Source: an uncultured Tateyamaria sp. (GTDB lineage: Bacteria > Pseudomonadota > Alphaproteobacteria > Rhodobacterales > Rhodobacteraceae). Taken from it: DNA of 64,000 nt. Below the pieces are notes generated by a model, which saw only the letters and a program-made list of their open reading frames with translations, searched no databases and was not told the DNA's origin. Of this stretch, positions 2,586-9,976 are shown in pieces; the first letter of the stretch is position 1, and every line of letters begins with the position of its first letter. The DNA lies in assembly GCF_947487805.1 (NCBI RefSeq), contig NZ_CANKXW010000004.1:1-64000 (forward strand). The letters are read 5' to 3'. The position numbers were made by a program, and so were the translations under genes.

Positions 2586-3818
2586 ATGTTCGTCCTGTCG
2601 AACACCGCGGCGCGGCGTGTCTTTCTGGACCGCCATGCGCTGTCTGAAACACCGCAGGGGCTCGCGCGTGGCGCAGACCTGCTTGGCCTGATCGAACGGC
2701 TGGGCTTTGTGCAGCTGGACAGCATCAACACCGTGGCGCGTGCACATGACATGATCCTGTTTTCGCGCAGGCCGCGATATCGCCCCAAGGCGCTGCGCAC
2801 GCTCTATGAAAAGGACCGGGCGCTCTTTGAACACTGGACCCATGACGCGGCCGTGATCCCGTTGCGGTTCTATCCGTACTGGCATCTGCGCCGGGAACGG
2901 GACGCGGCGCGGTTGCGGGACAAATGGTCGGAATGGCGGCGCGACGGGTTCGAGGCCAAGTTTCAGCCCGTGCTGGACCGGATCCGCGACCACGGCTCCT
3001 GTTGTTCCGGCGATGTCGGCGAGGGCGAGAAACGCGGCTCCGGCGGGTGGTGGGACTGGCATCCGTCCAAGACGGCGCTGGAATACCTGTGGCGCAGCGG
3101 TGCCTTGCAGGTTGTGCGGCGCGAGGGGTTCCAGAAATACTATGACCTGACCGAACGTGTGCTGGACCAGACAGCGCAGGGCAATGCACCCGATACCGAG
3201 GAAAGCATCGACTGGTGCTGCCGCGAGGCGCTGGACCGTTTGGGCTTTGCCACCCATGGCGAACTGGCGGCGTTCTGGGATCACATCACCCCGGCCGAGG
3301 CCAAGGCGTGGTGCACGACTGCGCTGGCGCAAGGGCGCATCATCCAGGTCGGTGTGACAGGGGTGGACGGATCGGTACGCCCCGCCTTTGCCTGGCCCGA
3401 CCTGCCAGAGGACCCCGCACTGGACCAGCCGCCAACAGGCCGTTTGCGCGTGCTCAGCCCGTTCGACCCGGCCCTGCGGGACCGCAAGCGGGCCGAACGG
3501 CTGTTCGGATTTGCCTACCGGATCGAGATCTTTGTGCCTGAGCCAAAGCGGACCTATGGCTACTATGTCTTTCCGCTGATGGAAGGCGACCGGCTGGTGG
3601 GCCGCATCGACATGAAGGCGTTCCGCGCCGACGATACGCTGCGCGTGCGCGCCCTCTGGCCCGAACGCAAGGTCCGCTGGGGCAAGGGGCGGCAGGCGGC
3701 CCTCGAGGCCGAACTCGACCGCGTGCTGCGTCTGGCCGGTGTGTCGCATCTGGCCTTTGACGATGGCTGGTTGCGTACCCCGATGGAACCCGATTGCGCA
3801 CCTGTGCAGAACCGCTAG
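2586..3818 (+). CDS. ycaQ: winged-helix DNA glycosylase of the YcaQ (AlkX) family
   Basis: A 410-residue protein of the HTH_42 superfamily, the fold of bacterial DNA-crosslink glycosylases. The catalytic QxD motif that marks the YcaQ branch (instead of QxQ in AlkZ) is seen as FVQLDSINTV, Q43 and D45, followed by the conserved RAHDMILFSR. The tandem winged-helix core spans most of the protein, and a C-terminal beta-barrel part contains YGYYVFPLMEGDRLVGR. Family members remove crosslinked or bulky N7-alkylated purines from DNA. The length equals the usual family length. It is six bases from the LacI gene and about ten bases from pxpB. Confidence 0.88.
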   Translation: MFVLSNTAARRVFLDRHALSETPQGLARGADLLGLIERLGFVQLDSINTVARAHDMILFSRRPRYRPKALRTLYEKDRALFEHWTHDAAVIPLRFYPYWHLRRERDAARLRDKWSEWRRDGFEAKFQPVLDRIRDHGSCCSGDVGEGEKRGSGGWWDWHPSKTALEYLWRSGALQVVRREGFQKYYDLTERVLDQTAQGNAPDTEESIDWCCREALDRLGFATHGELAAFWDHITPAEAKAWCTTALAQGRIIQVGVTGVDGSVRPAFAWPDLPEDPALDQPPTGRLRVLSPFDPALRDRKRAERLFGFAYRIEIFVPEPKRTYGYYVFPLMEGDRLVGRIDMKAFRADDTLRVRALWPERKVRWGKGRQAALEAELDRVLRLAGVSHLAFDDGWLRTPMEPDCAPVQNR

Positions 3819-3828
3819 TCTGCCTCCC

Positions 3829-4575
3829 ATGACCCAGACCGACTTTGCCCCCAAGATCCGCTCCGTTGGCCTCAACGGTGTTCTGGTCACGTTCGGGGAC
3901 AAGGCCACGGATACCGCCAACCGGGCGGCCATCGCTTTTCGCGGTGCGGTCGATGCGGCGGGCTGGGCGGAGGTGCAGGAAAGCAGCAGCACGCTGGTCT
4001 CGGCGTTTTTTCGGATCGATCTGGCGACCCATGGTTTCGACACCATCCGCGACAGGCTGGCCGAGGTGTTGTCGGCGCAGGACTGGACCACGGCCCAACT
4101 GCCCGAAGGCCGCGCGCTCTGGACCATTCCTGCCGCCTTTGGCGGGGCCCGCGCGCCACAGCTGGGCGAGGCCGCAGAGGCCGCAGGCATGGACGAGGCG
4201 CTGGCGCTGGCCGATCTGACATCTGCACGGTTGCGGGTTCTGACACTGGGCTTTGCGCCGGGTCAGCCGTACCTCGGCACGCTGGGTCAGGCGTGGGACA
4301 TCCCCCGTCAGGTGGGTTTGACACCCAATGTGCCCGCCGGGGCGCTGGTGGCCGCGGTGCGACAGGTGTGCCTCTTTGCCAAGGACACGCCGACGGGCTG
4401 GCGCCATGTGGGGCAATCCGCCTTTGCCTGTTTCCGCCCAAACAGCACGACACCCTTTCCGCTGGCCCCCGGAGACGAGGTGCAATTCGCACCCGTGTCC
4501 GAGGCCGAACTGGCGCGGATCGAGGCAAACAACAGCGACGGGTCCGGAGGCGCGGACCGCGTGTTGATCACATGA
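3829..4575 (+). CDS. pxpB: 5-oxoprolinase subunit PxpB
   Basis: A 248-residue protein of the KipI/PxpB family, one of three subunits that together hydrolyse 5-oxoproline (pyroglutamate) to glutamate with ATP. The signature LGFAPGQPYLGTL is present (the family usually has GFxPGFPYLG, so the second aromatic is changed to Gln), as is VGLTPNVPAGAL and the GDEV near the end. The ATG at 3829 aligns with the family start (MTQTDFAPKI); an earlier in-frame start would overlap the ycaQ end. The stop overlaps the pxpC start by four bases, so translation is coupled. The order pxpB-pxpC-pxpA and the completeness of the set make the assignment secure. Confidence 0.92.
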   Translation: MTQTDFAPKIRSVGLNGVLVTFGDKATDTANRAAIAFRGAVDAAGWAEVQESSSTLVSAFFRIDLATHGFDTIRDRLAEVLSAQDWTTAQLPEGRALWTIPAAFGGARAPQLGEAAEAAGMDEALALADLTSARLRVLTLGFAPGQPYLGTLGQAWDIPRQVGLTPNVPAGALVAAVRQVCLFAKDTPTGWRHVGQSAFACFRPNSTTPFPLAPGDEVQFAPVSEAELARIEANNSDGSGGADRVLIT

Positions 4576-5594
4576 GGGCGCTTGTCGTGCGTCAGGTGGG
4601 ACCCGGCGTCGCGGTTCAGGATCTGGGCCGTCCGGGGTTTCTGGCCAAGGGCCTGACCCAAGGCGGCGCCGCAGACACCCGCGCCGTGCACGAAGGGGCG
4701 GCGCTGTTGCGGCAATCGCCGAACTGTGCCGTGCTCGAAATGGTCGGCACGGGCGGAACCTTTGACGCCACCGAAGACATCCGCATCGCGCTGACGGGTG
4801 CGGTGATGACCGCGCAGATCGACGGTGACGCGGTTGCCTGGAACGCAAGTCATCTGGTGCCCAAGGGGGCCGCGCTGGTCATCGGGCCGACGCGGTCTGG
4901 CACCTATGGCTATCTGCATGTGGGCGGTGGCTTTGCCACGGCCCCCCTGCTGGGATCGCGCGCAACGCACCAGTCCTGCGGACTGGGCGCGCTGGTCAGC
5001 GCAGGTGAGGCCCTGCCGGTTGCAACGGACAAGGGGCGCGACACCGGCATGACCCTGTCACCCGAACCCCGGCTGACTGGCGGGACCGTACGCATCGTGC
5101 CCAGCATGCAGACCGAGGATTTCGACCCCGCCATCCGTGCGCTTTTCGAGGCGACCGAGTTTCGCCGCGACCCCCGCGCCAATCGGCAGGGCATCCGCAT
5201 GGACAGCGACAGCCAGGGGTTCACCAACCCCAAGGCGCTGAGCATCGTCAGCGAGGTCATCGTGCCGGGCGACATCCAGATCACCGGCGACGGCACGCCC
5301 TTTGTCCTCATGGCAGAAAGCCAGACCACAGGCGGTTATCCCCGGATCGGCACGGTGCTGCCCTGCGACCTGCCGCGCGTGGCGCAAGCCCCCGCGGGTG
5401 CCGCGATCCGGTTCGAATTTCTCAGCCTCGCGGACGGGGCCGCGGTACAGGCCCGCGCCGATGCAGAGCTGCGCAAGCTGCCGCAAACCGTGACCCCGCT
5501 GGTGCGGGATCCGGCGCAGATGCAGGATTTGCTGTCATATCAACTGGTGGGCGGTATGATATCCGCCACCGACGCGCCACTGGACGAAGGATGA
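4572..5594 (+). CDS. pxpC: 5-oxoprolinase subunit PxpC (biotin-dependent carboxyltransferase-like)
   Basis: A 340-residue KipA/PxpC-family protein. The N-terminal signature is clear: GPGVAVQDLGRPGF, then GLTQGGAADTRAV, and the later segments RQGIRMD, IVPGDIQITGDGTP and TTGGYPRIGTVL are conserved in the family, which shares its fold with the carboxyltransferase part of urea carboxylase. It forms the active 5-oxoprolinase with PxpB and PxpA in the cytoplasm. The ATG at 4572 overlaps the pxpB stop as ATGA. The gene is followed after four bases by pxpA. Confidence 0.92.
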   Translation: MRALVVRQVGPGVAVQDLGRPGFLAKGLTQGGAADTRAVHEGAALLRQSPNCAVLEMVGTGGTFDATEDIRIALTGAVMTAQIDGDAVAWNASHLVPKGAALVIGPTRSGTYGYLHVGGGFATAPLLGSRATHQSCGLGALVSAGEALPVATDKGRDTGMTLSPEPRLTGGTVRIVPSMQTEDFDPAIRALFEATEFRRDPRANRQGIRMDSDSQGFTNPKALSIVSEVIVPGDIQITGDGTPFVLMAESQTTGGYPRIGTVLPCDLPRVAQAPAGAAIRFEFLSLADGAAVQARADAELRKLPQTVTPLVRDPAQMQDLLSYQLVGGMISATDAPLDEG

Positions 5595-5598
5595 ACAC

Positions 5599-6366
5599 AT
5601 GCACGTCGATCTGAACGCTGATATGGGCGAAAGCTTTGGTCCATGGACCATGGGCGACGATGCGGCCCTTCTGGACATCGTCACCTCGGCCAACATTGCC
5701 TGTGGCGCCCATGCGGGCGACCCGGATGTCATGGCATCCACGATGGGCATCGCGCTGGACAAGGGCGTGGGCGTGGGGTCGCATCCCGGCTTTGCCGACA
5801 TTCAGGGCTTTGGCCGTCGCCGCATCGATATGCCGATTGCCTCCCTGCAAAACTCGATCCGCTGCCAGGTGGGGGCGACGCTGGGCATGGCCCGTGCACT
5901 GGGCGCGCAGGTGCGCCACGTGAAAATGCACGGCGCCCTGGGCAACATGACCTCAGAGAACGAAGAGATGGCGCGCGCCTGCTATGACGCCGCGCTGTCG
6001 GCGCATCCCGATGCGATCCTCATGGTGCTGGCCGCCACCGCGCAGGAACGTGCCGCGCGGTCGCTTGGGGCGCGGTTTGCCTGCGAAATCTTTGCCGACC
6101 GGGCCTATAATTCCGACGCGACGCTCGTGGACCGTCGCCAGCCCGGTGCCATCATACACGACGCAGAGCTTGCCGGGCGGCGCATGGTCGAGATGGTCAA
6201 GGCGCAGGCGATCATCACCGAGGACGGCACCCGGATCGACACACCCATCGACAGCATCTGCTGCCACGGCGACACACCCGAAGCCGTGGACATCGCCGCA
6301 AGCGTCCGCCGCACACTCGAGGCCGAAGGGATCGCGGTGCGCACTTTTGACGGGCGCACCGGCTGA
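5599..6366 (+). CDS. pxpA: 5-oxoprolinase subunit PxpA (LamB/YcsF family)
   Basis: A 255-residue LamB/YcsF protein, the hydrolase-like subunit of 5-oxoprolinase. The diagnostic N-terminus VDLNADMGESFGPW, TSANIACGAHAGDP, VGSHPGFADIQGFGRR and HVKMHGALGNM are all present, as is the C-terminal CCHGDTPEA. Length is typical. GAAGGA lies eight bases upstream of the ATG. It ends the pxpBCA operon; a strong hairpin directly follows the stop. 5-Oxoproline arises spontaneously from glutamine and glutamate and from gamma-glutamyl turnover, so the product links this locus to glutamate. The neighbour on the other strand carries a glutamate-synthase domain, but a shared pathway is only a guess. Confidence 0.93.
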   Translation: MHVDLNADMGESFGPWTMGDDAALLDIVTSANIACGAHAGDPDVMASTMGIALDKGVGVGSHPGFADIQGFGRRRIDMPIASLQNSIRCQVGATLGMARALGAQVRHVKMHGALGNMTSENEEMARACYDAALSAHPDAILMVLAATAQERAARSLGARFACEIFADRAYNSDATLVDRRQPGAIIHDAELAGRRMVEMVKAQAIITEDGTRIDTPIDSICCHGDTPEAVDIAASVRRTLEAEGIAVRTFDGRTG

Positions 6367-6374
6367 GATAACAG

Positions 6375-6397
6375 AGGTGCGCAGTGAATGCGCACCT
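6375..6397. terminator. bidirectional terminator hairpin between convergent genes
   Basis: A perfect nine-base stem, AGGTGCGCA and TGCGCACCT, with a five-base loop GTGAA sits between the pxpA stop (6366) and the stop of the opposite-strand Rieske-ThDP gene (6396), overlapping the latter by two bases. There is no long T run on either side. Position and stem quality suggest that it ends both transcripts. Confidence 0.7.
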
Positions 6398-8369
6398 ACA
6401 CCAGTTCCGCGTCGGTCATGATTTCGACAAGCGCCGGGCCATCGACGTCCAGCGCCTTTTGCAACGCGGCCTCGATCGCATCCGACGACACGACCTTTTC
6501 CCCATGCGCGCCGCAGATCTTGGCAAAGGCGGCAAAGGACGGGTTGTGCAGAGACGTTTCCCACACCGGCCATTCGCCAGATTTCTGTTCCTTGGTGATC
6601 TTGCCCAGCTCACCGTTGTGCAAGAGCACATGGGTGATATCCATCCCGTATTTGACGGCCGTGGTCAGCTCCATCGGGTATTGACCAAAGCCACCGTCAC
6701 CGGAGATCGAAATGATCTTGCGTCCCTTGAGCCAGTCGAAATCCTGCGTCGCCGCCCATGCCCCCATCGCCGCCGGAAAGCCAAAGCCGATGGACCCGAG
6801 ATAGCCCGACATCAGCACGCGCTGGCCCTTGGTTTCGAAATAGCGGCCAAAGGAGTAAGTGTTGTTGCCCACGTCCACGGCGATGATCGCATCCGCGGGG
6901 GCCACGCGGCTGAGCGCGTCAAAGATGGCAAAGGCGTGGATGCCCTTGGCCGTTTCCTCCTCCATGCGGGAACGTTTCTCGCGCCGCCAGATGTCCCAGC
7001 GGTCGGCCAGTTCGGCGATCTGATCCGGTGCATCGGCGGGGCGGGACAGCCCACCGTTGATCGCCGCGCAGAACGCGCCGATCTCGGCCCAGATGGGCAG
7101 GTCGACGGGGTGGAACTTGCCCAGCTGCATCCGTTCAAAATCGACCTGAATGATCGGCTTGGATGGCTCGATCCCGGTGTGGTTTGAGAACGACGTGCCA
7201 AGGGTCAGGATCAGGTCCGCCTCGTTCATGAACCACGAGGCGATGGGCGTGCCGGAACGGCCCAGCACACCAGCGGCATTGGGGTGATCATCCGCGATCA
7301 GCCCCTTGCCCTTGAACGTGGTTAGCACGGGCGCGCCCAGATCCACGGCCAGTTTCTCGATGGCCTCCATATGATCCCACGCCCCGTGGCCGATCACCAG
7401 AATGGGCCGCTTGGCCCCGTTCAGCATCTTGAGCGCATCGGCGACATCTTCGTCCGACGGCTTGACCACCGCACGGCCCATACGGCCATCCGGCGTGGAC
7501 GCGGGCGCGTCCGACGGGTTGGTCTGCATGTCATCGGGAAAGATCAGGTGCGACACGTCGCGCTCGACCAACGCGTTCTTCATCGCCAGCGACACCAGTT
7601 CGGAATGTTTCGACGTACTCAGCACCGTCTGGCTGAACCGGCTGACCGCATCAAAGGCCGACGCCAGATCGATGTCCTGAAACGCGCCGGGGCCAAAGAC
7701 CTGCGTCTGCACCTGCCCAGTCAGCGCCAAAACCGGCGCGCGGTCCACTTTCGCATCCCAAAGCCCGGTGAGCAGGTTGGTCGCCCCCGGCCCCGCAATC
7801 GTCAGACAACCCGCAGGATGCCCCGTCAGCTTGCCATAGGCCGACGCGGCAAAGGCGGCGGCCCCTTCGTGCCGGATGCCGACATATTTCATCTCGCCCG
7901 CCTCGACCCGCATACGGATTGCATCCGCCAGTCCGAGGTTCGAGTGGCCGACCATGCCGAACACGTGCTTGATGCCCCAGTTCACCATGCTCTCGGCCAT
8001 TTGGTCGGACACGGTGCGCTCATGCGGCGGCTCGGGCTCAAGGCCCACAAAAATCTCGTCGCCCTCTATCTTGAGCGGATAGATCTTCTGCCCGGTATCC
8101 TCGTGCCCGCCCGGAGGCGCCCCTGTCAGCGGATCGAAATCCCAGCCGTGCCACGGGCAACGGATCCAGCATTTACCACCCTCGCCCTTTTCGATCGACC
8201 CCTCGCCCAGCGGCCCGCGCTGGTGCGGGCAATGGTTGTCCATCGCGGCCCATTGCCCGTCGAAATGCGACAGACAGATGGACACGGTGCGCGCCGTCAC
8301 GGTTTTCACGCGGCCTTCGGGCAGGTCGCCGGTCTGACCCACGCGGATCCAGTCGAGTTGATCGGTCAT
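6396..8369 (-). CDS. Rieske [2Fe-2S] domain fused to a thiamine-diphosphate-dependent enzyme
   Basis: A 657-residue fusion. Residues 5-110 are a Rieske ferredoxin domain with both ligand pairs (C47-P-H49 and C71-P-W-H74). Residues 118-657 are a complete pyruvate-oxidase/acetolactate-synthase-type enzyme: catalytic glutamate E168 in GIRHEGAAAFAASAYGKLTG, a middle domain, and the diphosphate-binding GDGGFGQ at 557 with its partner asparagine about 28 residues on. Such enzymes decarboxylate 2-oxoacids and may pass electrons to an acceptor; here the Rieske centre could be that acceptor. I use the ATG at 8369 because GGAGG lies seven bases upstream and it overlaps the preceding stop as ATGA. The substrate is unknown. 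Confidence 0.88.
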   Translation of the reverse strand: MTDQLDWIRVGQTGDLPEGRVKTVTARTVSICLSHFDGQWAAMDNHCPHQRGPLGEGSIEKGEGGKCWIRCPWHGWDFDPLTGAPPGGHEDTGQKIYPLKIEGDEIFVGLEPEPPHERTVSDQMAESMVNWGIKHVFGMVGHSNLGLADAIRMRVEAGEMKYVGIRHEGAAAFAASAYGKLTGHPAGCLTIAGPGATNLLTGLWDAKVDRAPVLALTGQVQTQVFGPGAFQDIDLASAFDAVSRFSQTVLSTSKHSELVSLAMKNALVERDVSHLIFPDDMQTNPSDAPASTPDGRMGRAVVKPSDEDVADALKMLNGAKRPILVIGHGAWDHMEAIEKLAVDLGAPVLTTFKGKGLIADDHPNAAGVLGRSGTPIASWFMNEADLILTLGTSFSNHTGIEPSKPIIQVDFERMQLGKFHPVDLPIWAEIGAFCAAINGGLSRPADAPDQIAELADRWDIWRREKRSRMEEETAKGIHAFAIFDALSRVAPADAIIAVDVGNNTYSFGRYFETKGQRVLMSGYLGSIGFGFPAAMGAWAATQDFDWLKGRKIISISGDGGFGQYPMELTTAVKYGMDITHVLLHNGELGKITKEQKSGEWPVWETSLHNPSFAAFAKICGAHGEKVVSSDAIEAALQKALDVDGPALVEIMTDAELV

Positions 8370-9976
8370 GCTACACCTCCAAACGGGACACCCGAGATTT
8401 CGGACATGTCCTTTTTCCACGTGGTCAGGTCATCAATATTGAATTTCGACAGGTGATCGTGGCCACAGGCCCGCGCCATCACCTGCATCAACTCGGTCGA
8501 CGCCTCAAAGAAATTGGCCAGCTGCCGCGCGGATTTCTCGACCACCAGCCGGTTGACCAGATGCGGTTTCTGGCTGGCGATGCCCACGGGGCAATTGTTC
8601 GTGTGGCACGCCCGCATCGCGATGCAGCCAATGGCCTGCATGGCCGAGTTCGACAGTGCCACGGCATCCGCGCCCAGCGCCAGTGCCTTGATGAAATCCG
8701 CCGGTTTGCGCAGCCCGCCGGTGATCACCAGCGACACGTCATGCCGCTCCAACCGGTCCAGATGCGCGCGGGCACGGGCCAGCGCGGGGATCGTCGGCAC
8801 CGAGATATTGTCGCGGAAGATAATCGGGGCCGCGCCGGTCCCGCCGCCACGCCCGTCCAGAATGATATAGTCGACGCCGACCTCAAGGGCCGCATCGATA
8901 TCCTTTTCGATATGCTGCGCCGACAGCTTGTACCCCACCGGGATACCCCCCGTCCGGTCGCGCACCTCGTCGGCGAAATCCTTGATCTGCGCCGGGTCGG
9001 TCCAATCCGGGAACCGGGGCGGTGAAATCGCGTCTTCACCCTCGTTCAGGCCCCGAACTTCGGCGATCTTGCCATGTACCTTGTTGCCGGGCAGGTGTCC
9101 GCCTGTGCCGGTCTTGGCCCCCTGCCCGCCCTTGAAGTGGAACGCCTGACACTTCTGTACCTTGTCCCAGGAAAACCCAAACCGCGCCGACGCCAGTTCG
9201 TAGAAGTAGCGCGAGTTCGCCTCCTGCTCTTCGGGCAGCATCCCGCCCTCGCCCGAACAGATACCCGTCCCGGCCAGTTCGGCCCCACGCGCCAGCGCGA
9301 TCTTGGCTGGCTCCGACAGCGCGCCATAAGACATGTCGGACACGAACAGCGGGATATCCAGCTTCAGCGGTTTCTGCGCATTCGGGCCGATCACCACTTC
9401 CGTCCCAACCGGATCGTCGTCCAAGAGCGGCGGCTTGTGCAGCTGCGCGGTCAGCAACTGGATGTCATCCCAATCGGGCAATTGCACGCGCGGCACGCCC
9501 ATCGCATCGACCGCCCCGTGGTGGCCCGTCTTGGACAACCCGTCGCGGGCGTATTGCCTGATCAACCCGGCATAGGGTTCTTCCTCGGTGCCATGCGCGG
9601 TGTCGGCATAGAGGCCCAGATAGGCGTCGCGGTTGAACGGCTGCGGGTTGGCGTGGCCCCATGCGTTGACCTCATCGGCATCGACACAAATGTCGTCGCC
9701 CTCCAGCCAGCTCTTGAACTTGGGCAGCGCCTCTTCATTGGCGTATTCGCTGACCCCGCTATCGAGCCGATAGTCCCAGTCGTGCACCCCACAGATCAGG
9801 TTGTCGCCGCGCACAAACCCGTCCGACATCAGCGCCCCGCGATGCAGACACCGCCCGTAAAACACCGATATGTCATCGTCAAAACGGACAACGACAAGGT
9901 CCACCTCGCCGACAATGGCATAGGCGGGACTGCGGTCCGGCAGGGTACTGAGTTGGGCAACTACGTGTGGTGTCAT
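8366..9976 (-). CDS. Rieske [2Fe-2S] domain fused to a glutamate-synthase FMN domain
   Basis: A 536-residue fusion. Residues 1-100 are a Rieske domain (C43-L-H45 and C62-G-V-H65). Residues about 150-530 are the FMN-binding central domain of glutamate synthase: FVSDMSYGALS, GTGICSGEGGMLPEE, LDGRGGGTGAAP and the [3Fe-4S] cysteines C451, C457 and C462 in CIAMRACHTNNCPVG. There is no glutaminase domain, so if it makes glutamate it would use ammonia or receive nitrogen from another protein; related single-domain proteins include the C subunit of N-methylglutamate synthase. The ATG at 9976 has AGGAC upstream. It is the first gene of the two-gene unit and overlaps the next by four bases. Confidence 0.88.
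   Translation of the reverse strand: MTPHVVAQLSTLPDRSPAYAIVGEVDLVVVRFDDDISVFYGRCLHRGALMSDGFVRGDNLICGVHDWDYRLDSGVSEYANEEALPKFKSWLEGDDICVDADEVNAWGHANPQPFNRDAYLGLYADTAHGTEEEPYAGLIRQYARDGLSKTGHHGAVDAMGVPRVQLPDWDDIQLLTAQLHKPPLLDDDPVGTEVVIGPNAQKPLKLDIPLFVSDMSYGALSEPAKIALARGAELAGTGICSGEGGMLPEEQEANSRYFYELASARFGFSWDKVQKCQAFHFKGGQGAKTGTGGHLPGNKVHGKIAEVRGLNEGEDAISPPRFPDWTDPAQIKDFADEVRDRTGGIPVGYKLSAQHIEKDIDAALEVGVDYIILDGRGGGTGAAPIIFRDNISVPTIPALARARAHLDRLERHDVSLVITGGLRKPADFIKALALGADAVALSNSAMQAIGCIAMRACHTNNCPVGIASQKPHLVNRLVVEKSARQLANFFEASTELMQVMARACGHDHLSKFNIDDLTTWKKDMSEISGVPFGGVA

Follow-up and report, generated by a model that had tools for sequence, protein, structure and literature searches.

Two overlapping genes on the reverse strand of a 64,000-nucleotide stretch of DNA from an uncultured Tateyamaria sp. 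(contig NZ_CANKXW010000004.1, positions 1 to 64,000; hereafter the window) each fuse an N-terminal Rieske [2Fe-2S] domain to a different enzyme, and we propose with moderate confidence that their products form the soluble part of an electron-transfer module connected to the membrane. The upstream gene, Rieske-GltS (GltS-R; 8366-9976, 536 amino acids [aa]), joins the Rieske domain to a glutamate synthase (GltS)-like domain, while the downstream gene, Rieske-ThDP (ThDP-R; 6396-8369, 657 aa), joins it to a thiamine diphosphate (ThDP) enzyme. Together with a third Rieske protein, a membrane protein that combines a ferric-reductase domain with a Rieske domain (FRD-R), the pair suggests an undescribed route by which electrons of amino or keto acids could reach the cell membrane. 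Both enzymes most likely oxidize their substrates and send single electrons out through their Rieske centers. In the open-licence literature, to which our search was confined, we found no description of either fusion or of the pair; in PMC5676040 the word Rieske appears solely as an author's name.

Domain architecture and conservation of the fusions

Both genes were defined from their open reading frames, Pfam domains, and orthologues, and all features described here lie on the reverse strand unless stated otherwise. In GltS-R the Rieske domain (residues 4-85, 9722-9967; PF00355, 2.8e-11) carries the ligands C43, H45, C62, and H65 and is followed by a glutamate-synthase flavin mononucleotide (FMN)/[3Fe-4S] domain (residues 197-505, 8462-9388; PF01645 [Glu_synthase], 4.4e-91) that aligns to GltS structures. 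Of 97 distinct relatives, 96 retain the [3Fe-4S] cysteine motif of this domain, C451-x5-C457-x4-C462 (8591-8626), and the remaining one is not covered at this position. ThDP-R has its own Rieske domain (residues 7-84, 8118-8351; PF00355, 2.1e-15) with ligands C47, H49, C71, and H74, followed by the N, M, and C domains of a ThDP enzyme (residues 119-650, 6420-8015; PF02776, PF00205, and PF02775, each below 1e-30), with the ThDP glutamate at position 168 (E168) and the GDG motif at 557. The genes share the four bases ATGA (8366-8369), the stop codon TGA of GltS-R occupying 8366-8368 and the start codon ATG of ThDP-R 8367-8369. An earlier note on this DNA had described two genes with intact N-terminal Rieske domains, one leading into a GltS and the other into a ThDP enzyme, with a four-base overlap, and this description was borne out to the base. 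Chance or misread domains are ruled out by the Pfam scores of the Rieske, Glu_synthase, and TPP domains, each of which exceeds its curated cut-off.

Ligand conservation was counted on distinct proteins, identical ones having been removed, and the C-x-H and C-x-x-H pairs are intact in 97/97 GltS and 67/67 ThDP relatives. Frequent loss of these ligands, which the earlier note had said would speak against a joint system, is thereby ruled out among the proteins compared. Full-length orthologues of GltS-R occur in many genera at 76-98% identity, and this breadth, together with the universal retention of the Rieske ligands, argues that the pair is not a chance product. Four of 68 aligned ThDP rows (a count that includes repeats), all haloarchaeal, have G557 replaced by Ser and N585 by Asp in the metal-binding region, with the Asp of the GDG motif still kept.

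Co-occurrence with a third Rieske protein

We compared gene content across 198 genomes of the same family and, separately, across 398 genomes sampled from the phylum. GltS-R was found in 23 of the family genomes (matches starting at query residue 6 or earlier; those in G157, G180, and G184 are partial), ThDP-R in 13, and both in 12. FRD-R was present in 20 family genomes, among them 12 of the 13 with ThDP-R, and all three genes occurred together in 11. Fisher values over the 198 genomes (3e-12 for GltS-R with ThDP-R, 3e-13 for ThDP-R with FRD-R, and 8e-10 for GltS-R with FRD-R) take no account of shared ancestry and serve as a guide only. ThDP-R was rarer in the phylum sample, occurring in 5 genomes, and GltS-R was present in 5/5; in the four of these besides the present genome, membrane genes are located between the pair. 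Beyond the bacteria, three haloarchaeal plasmids carry both genes at 56-62% identity in non-adjacent positions. In the family and phylum samples the ThDP gene comes with the GltS gene, and the converse is not true.

The GltS protein had 482 confirmed matches, and gene neighborhoods were surveyed in the best 80 of them, a non-random set in which some loci are short-flanked, with neighbor content scored by tblastn. ThDP-R lay near GltS-R in 53 of these loci, a Na+/H+ exchanger (PF00999, from one copy scanned) in 35, FRD-R in 34, and a further membrane-type protein, M4, in 33. In many loci roughly 2.4 kb of DNA separating the two fusion genes, or a stretch directly after them, codes for membrane-type proteins. 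The simpler gene orders were GltS-ThDP (16 loci), exchanger-GltS-ThDP (7), and exchanger-GltS (5); those that include the membrane set were exchanger-GltS-ThDP-m6-FRD-R-M4 (10), GltS-m6-FRD-R-M4-m7-ThDP (9), and exchanger-GltS-m6-FRD-R-M4-m7-ThDP (8), and eight other orders occurred once each. The recurrence of the same parts in varied orders suggests selection for the set. Where the set is split across contigs, FRD-R adjoins ThDP-R in one genome (G151, GltS-R being on another contig) and GltS-R in another (G029, with ThDP-R elsewhere), so that each pairing is linked independently.

In FRD-R (~355 aa) a ferric-reductase transmembrane domain (PF01794) is joined to a Rieske domain (PF00355) at the C terminus. 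We aligned 22 copies selected for their length, 19 from the 30 members of the cluster and 3 from rhizobia, and every one of them has histidines 89, 101, 171, and 184 (L071 numbering) together with the Rieske ligands. The four invariant histidines are spaced as in the ferric-reductase family and, as there, would bind two hemes b. With six helices assigned, 22/22 copies have a higher frequency of Lys and Arg on the membrane face where the C-terminal Rieske domain lies, which suggests that this domain is cytosolic. Zhang et al. 2013 (PMC3591440) list Rieske, in one figure legend and one sentence of the discussion, among the domains fused to bacterial ferric-reductase-domain proteins; the main text of that paper is without the words thiamine and glutamate and leaves the partner enzymes unnamed.

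The proteins encoded beside FRD-R have few recognizable features: M4 and the small proteins m6 and m7 gave no Pfam match in our scan. M4 (for example L073:11049-11807) has one predicted helix followed by two OB-like halves, and the part after the helix is predicted to be periplasmic. An invariant C-x3-C plus H-x2-C-x3-C motif, present in 21/21 aligned copies, may bind a metal center; a structural model (mean predicted local distance difference test score [pLDDT], 81.5) had no reliable fold match (best E value, 0.015). As a side observation, three Rhizobium plasmids (L124-L126) carry FRD-R, an M4 homologue, and small genes near a short-chain dehydrogenase/reductase (SDR), a tetratricopeptide repeat (TPR) protein, an OpgC protein, a CoA transferase, and a ThDP protein that belongs to a different family: its membership in the ThDP-R family was rejected, as it is ~26% identical and the Rieske part of ThDP-R finds no counterpart in it.

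Catalytic halves and the proposed direction of electron flow

The best sequence match to the ThDP half among solved structures is PoxB, the pyruvate:ubiquinone oxidoreductase of E. coli. A Foldseek search with a model of the protein (mean pLDDT, 76.9; predicted template modeling score [pTM], 0.74) also placed PoxB at the top (3ey9/3eya), followed by acetohydroxyacid synthase (AHAS), L. plantarum POX, and C. glutamicum PQO. These enzymes carry flavin adenine dinucleotide (FAD), and in pyruvate oxidases FAD passes its electrons on to oxygen or quinone. The ThDP fold, catalytic Glu, Phe-Gln pair, and GDG motif of PoxB align with ThDP-R, and notable differences lie at the two ends and at one active-site position. 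PoxB is without the N-terminal Rieske domain, and its membrane-binding C-terminal tail is unmatched, query residue 653 of 657 aligning to PoxB residue 528 of 572. Phe465 of PoxB, equivalent to position 479 of POX, is aligned opposite Lys590 of ThDP-R (6600-6602; position hand-counted from the alignment). This residue is Lys in 60/60 distinct relatives covered (7 of the 67 are not covered there), and an invariant lysine here would suit an acidic substrate. ThDP-R misses the NCBIfam equivalog cut-offs of NF006377 (369.7 versus 742 bits) and NF006591 (299.6 versus 792), and by these curated cut-offs the ThDP half is outside the pyruvate oxidase and PoxB-type families.

The GltS half shares with glutamate synthase (GltB or ferredoxin-dependent GltS) the FMN and [3Fe-4S] synthase domain, but it lacks the glutaminase domain of the large subunit: only Rieske, Glu_synthase, and an overlapping FMN_dh match exceed the Pfam cut-offs. 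In the alignment to the GltS structures, the residues past a conserved SPP also differ from those of glutamate synthase. When relatives of the catalytic domain were typed by their [2Fe-2S] module (both strands read, with a loose CDGSH pattern), 103 were Rieske, L034 among them, 19 were CDGSH, and 2 were other, one of these (L158) with an in-frame stop. The 19 CDGSH-type sequences (for example L027, L028, L030, and L159-L166) form a separate sister clade with support of 0.98, and their catalytic part is 66-72% identical to the GltS half. This clade is the type 5 CDGSH protein of Lin et al. 2011 (PMC3174974), which has a [2Fe-2S] module in front of the same catalytic domain but carries tandem CDGSH where the GltS half has its Rieske domain; a CDGSH and Glu_synthase union is also mentioned in PMC5859297. 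Unlike the type 5 protein, Rieske-GltS occurs with ThDP and FRD-R partners. Judged from sequence, two kinds of His-ligated [2Fe-2S] module have been exchanged on one catalytic domain, and the presence of CDGSH in the sister clade indicates that such a module is a recurring need there. The exchange offers a natural experiment on the role of CDGSH centers.

We hypothesize that ThDP-R oxidizes a 2-oxoacid in the manner of PoxB and retains FAD, with electrons leaving through its fused Rieske center and not by direct membrane docking. The GltS-like enzyme would oxidize an amino acid at FMN and pass electrons via the [3Fe-4S] cluster to its own Rieske center. The electrons of both enzymes would then enter the Rieske domain of FRD-R, which is probably cytosolic and, where present, the likeliest acceptor; from there the hemes b of FRD-R would relay them to quinone or to M4, the predicted periplasmic partner. 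On the haloarchaeal plasmids, where FRD-R was not found, another acceptor would have to serve. The two reactions may form a single pathway in which an amino acid becomes a 2-oxoacid and then a decarboxylated product; the PoxB-like fold of the model is compatible with it without being proof. In its most specific form, which we regard as unlikely, the system would be a three-Rieske respiratory entry point in which the GltS-like enzyme makes a 2-oxoacid and ThDP-R oxidatively decarboxylates it, Lys590 binding the acidic side chain of a substrate such as 2-oxoglutarate, with both enzymes delivering to the Rieske-bearing membrane cytochrome b and from there to quinone or the cysteine-rich M4. If the proposal is true, central carbon metabolism would be connected to the membrane in a new way, by a version of pyruvate oxidase whose electrons are exported via a fused Rieske domain to a membrane cytochrome b dedicated to it.

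The homology of the GltS half to ferredoxin- and NADPH-dependent glutamate synthases also admits the opposite direction, in which electrons from quinol or NAD(P)H would pass via FRD-R or another reductase and the Rieske center, standing in for ferredoxin or NADPH, to drive a GltS-type reductive amination. We consider this quite improbable: the protein is without a glutaminase domain, Rieske and CDGSH centers usually have potentials too positive for efficient reductive amination, and PoxB-type enzymes, the relatives of the partner, are oxidases.

Counterevidence and the surrounding genes

Several observations weigh against an oxidative module linked to the membrane through FRD-R. The GltS-R gene is often found without its partner: 11 of its 23 family genomes are without ThDP-R, and it stands alone in 17 of the 80 loci, some of them short-flanked. 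ThDP-R is likewise missing from 8 of the 20 FRD-R family genomes, and of the ThDP-R genomes one (G194) has FRD-R without GltS-R and another (G126) has GltS-R without FRD-R; the associations are further tempered by the shared ancestry that the Fisher values leave out. In the Tateyamaria genome itself m6, FRD-R, M4, and m7 are encoded together on a different contig from the pair (L127:8180-10630), and the rhizobial FRD-R sits near a ThDP family without Rieske. A search of plasmids for FRD-R returned 5 records, all from Rhizobium and none from the haloarchaeal plasmids that bear the pair. The side of the membrane assigned to the FRD-R Rieske domain is a prediction, because a plain hydropathy scan finds six helices in only 10 of the 22 copies, with five in 11 and seven in 1. 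Confidence in the ThDP-R model falls below a pLDDT of 50 at residues 220-236 and 588-607, which span the active-site positions discussed above, and FAD, the substrates, the direction, and the contact between the proteins are matters of inference.

These counts bear directly on the joint electron-transfer role that the earlier note had proposed. As a strict two-enzyme pair it is rejected on the frequency with which GltS-R occurs without ThDP-R, and ThDP-R for its part is alone among the plasmid matches on one Haloferax larsenii and one Mycobacteroides plasmid. Mostly single homologues, which that note had set against its own idea, are about half true of GltS-R and false of ThDP-R in the proteobacterial samples. 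What stands is the broader joint role, favored by the near-constant company that ThDP-R keeps with GltS-R, by the retained ligands, and by a Rieske membrane protein linked to both genes that lay outside that note's view.

The solitary GltS-R genes also fit an alternative in which the enzymes are independent, GltS-R having a role of its own, as its CDGSH-bearing sister would, and ThDP-R another, the two being neighbors through a common stress or salt response. The frequent Na+/H+ exchanger accords with this, as do the extracytoplasmic function (ECF) sigma factor and zf-HC2 genes found in a few loci and the haloarchaeal plasmid copies, which sit among redox, sulfur, and metal genes. We nonetheless judge independence to be somewhat unlikely, since proteobacterial ThDP-R almost always accompanies Rieske-GltS (12/13 and 5/5) and both enzymes have Rieske domains and are linked to a third Rieske protein. 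The stress-like surroundings on the haloarchaeal plasmids would equally suit Rieske domains that act as redox or oxygen sensors, gating the enzymes and carrying no substrate electrons. That possibility seems to us very improbable, as a Rieske domain is also found on the heme-type membrane protein of the same cluster, and an electron-transfer chain fits this arrangement better than three sensors.

Within the proposed module, the exchanger, the occasional sigma factor, and the haloarchaeal settings suggest use under ionic or redox stress. The ECF sigma factor gene lies with a zf-HC2 (anti-sigma-like) gene near exchanger-GltS genes in L085, L087, L093, and L103, family tests having been run on L093 and L087. 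An antiporter common to the domains of life was not upheld: the haloarchaeal exchanger by ThDP-R belongs to the same Pfam family but gave only short matches of 26-32% identity, and the Mycobacteroides exchanger gave no significant match in our comparison. A near-identity search of phages gave no match.

In the window, pxpBCA-like 5-oxoprolinase genes (3739-6366, forward strand; judged from their translations) converge on the pair. A tie to the local sugar-acid or 5-oxoprolinase genes was dropped, as among the 80 loci such neighbors recur only in Tateyamaria. Two further neighbors were seen elsewhere: an SDR related to pteridine reductases adjoins the FRD-R genes of G151 (L130:11506-12291), and in Halorarius a gene resembling HdrA-type dihydrofolate reductase (275 bits against a cut-off of 300) shares four bases with the GltS gene (L116:25670-26149). 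With one neighbor pteridine-reductase-like and the other HdrA-like, a pterin link is possible.

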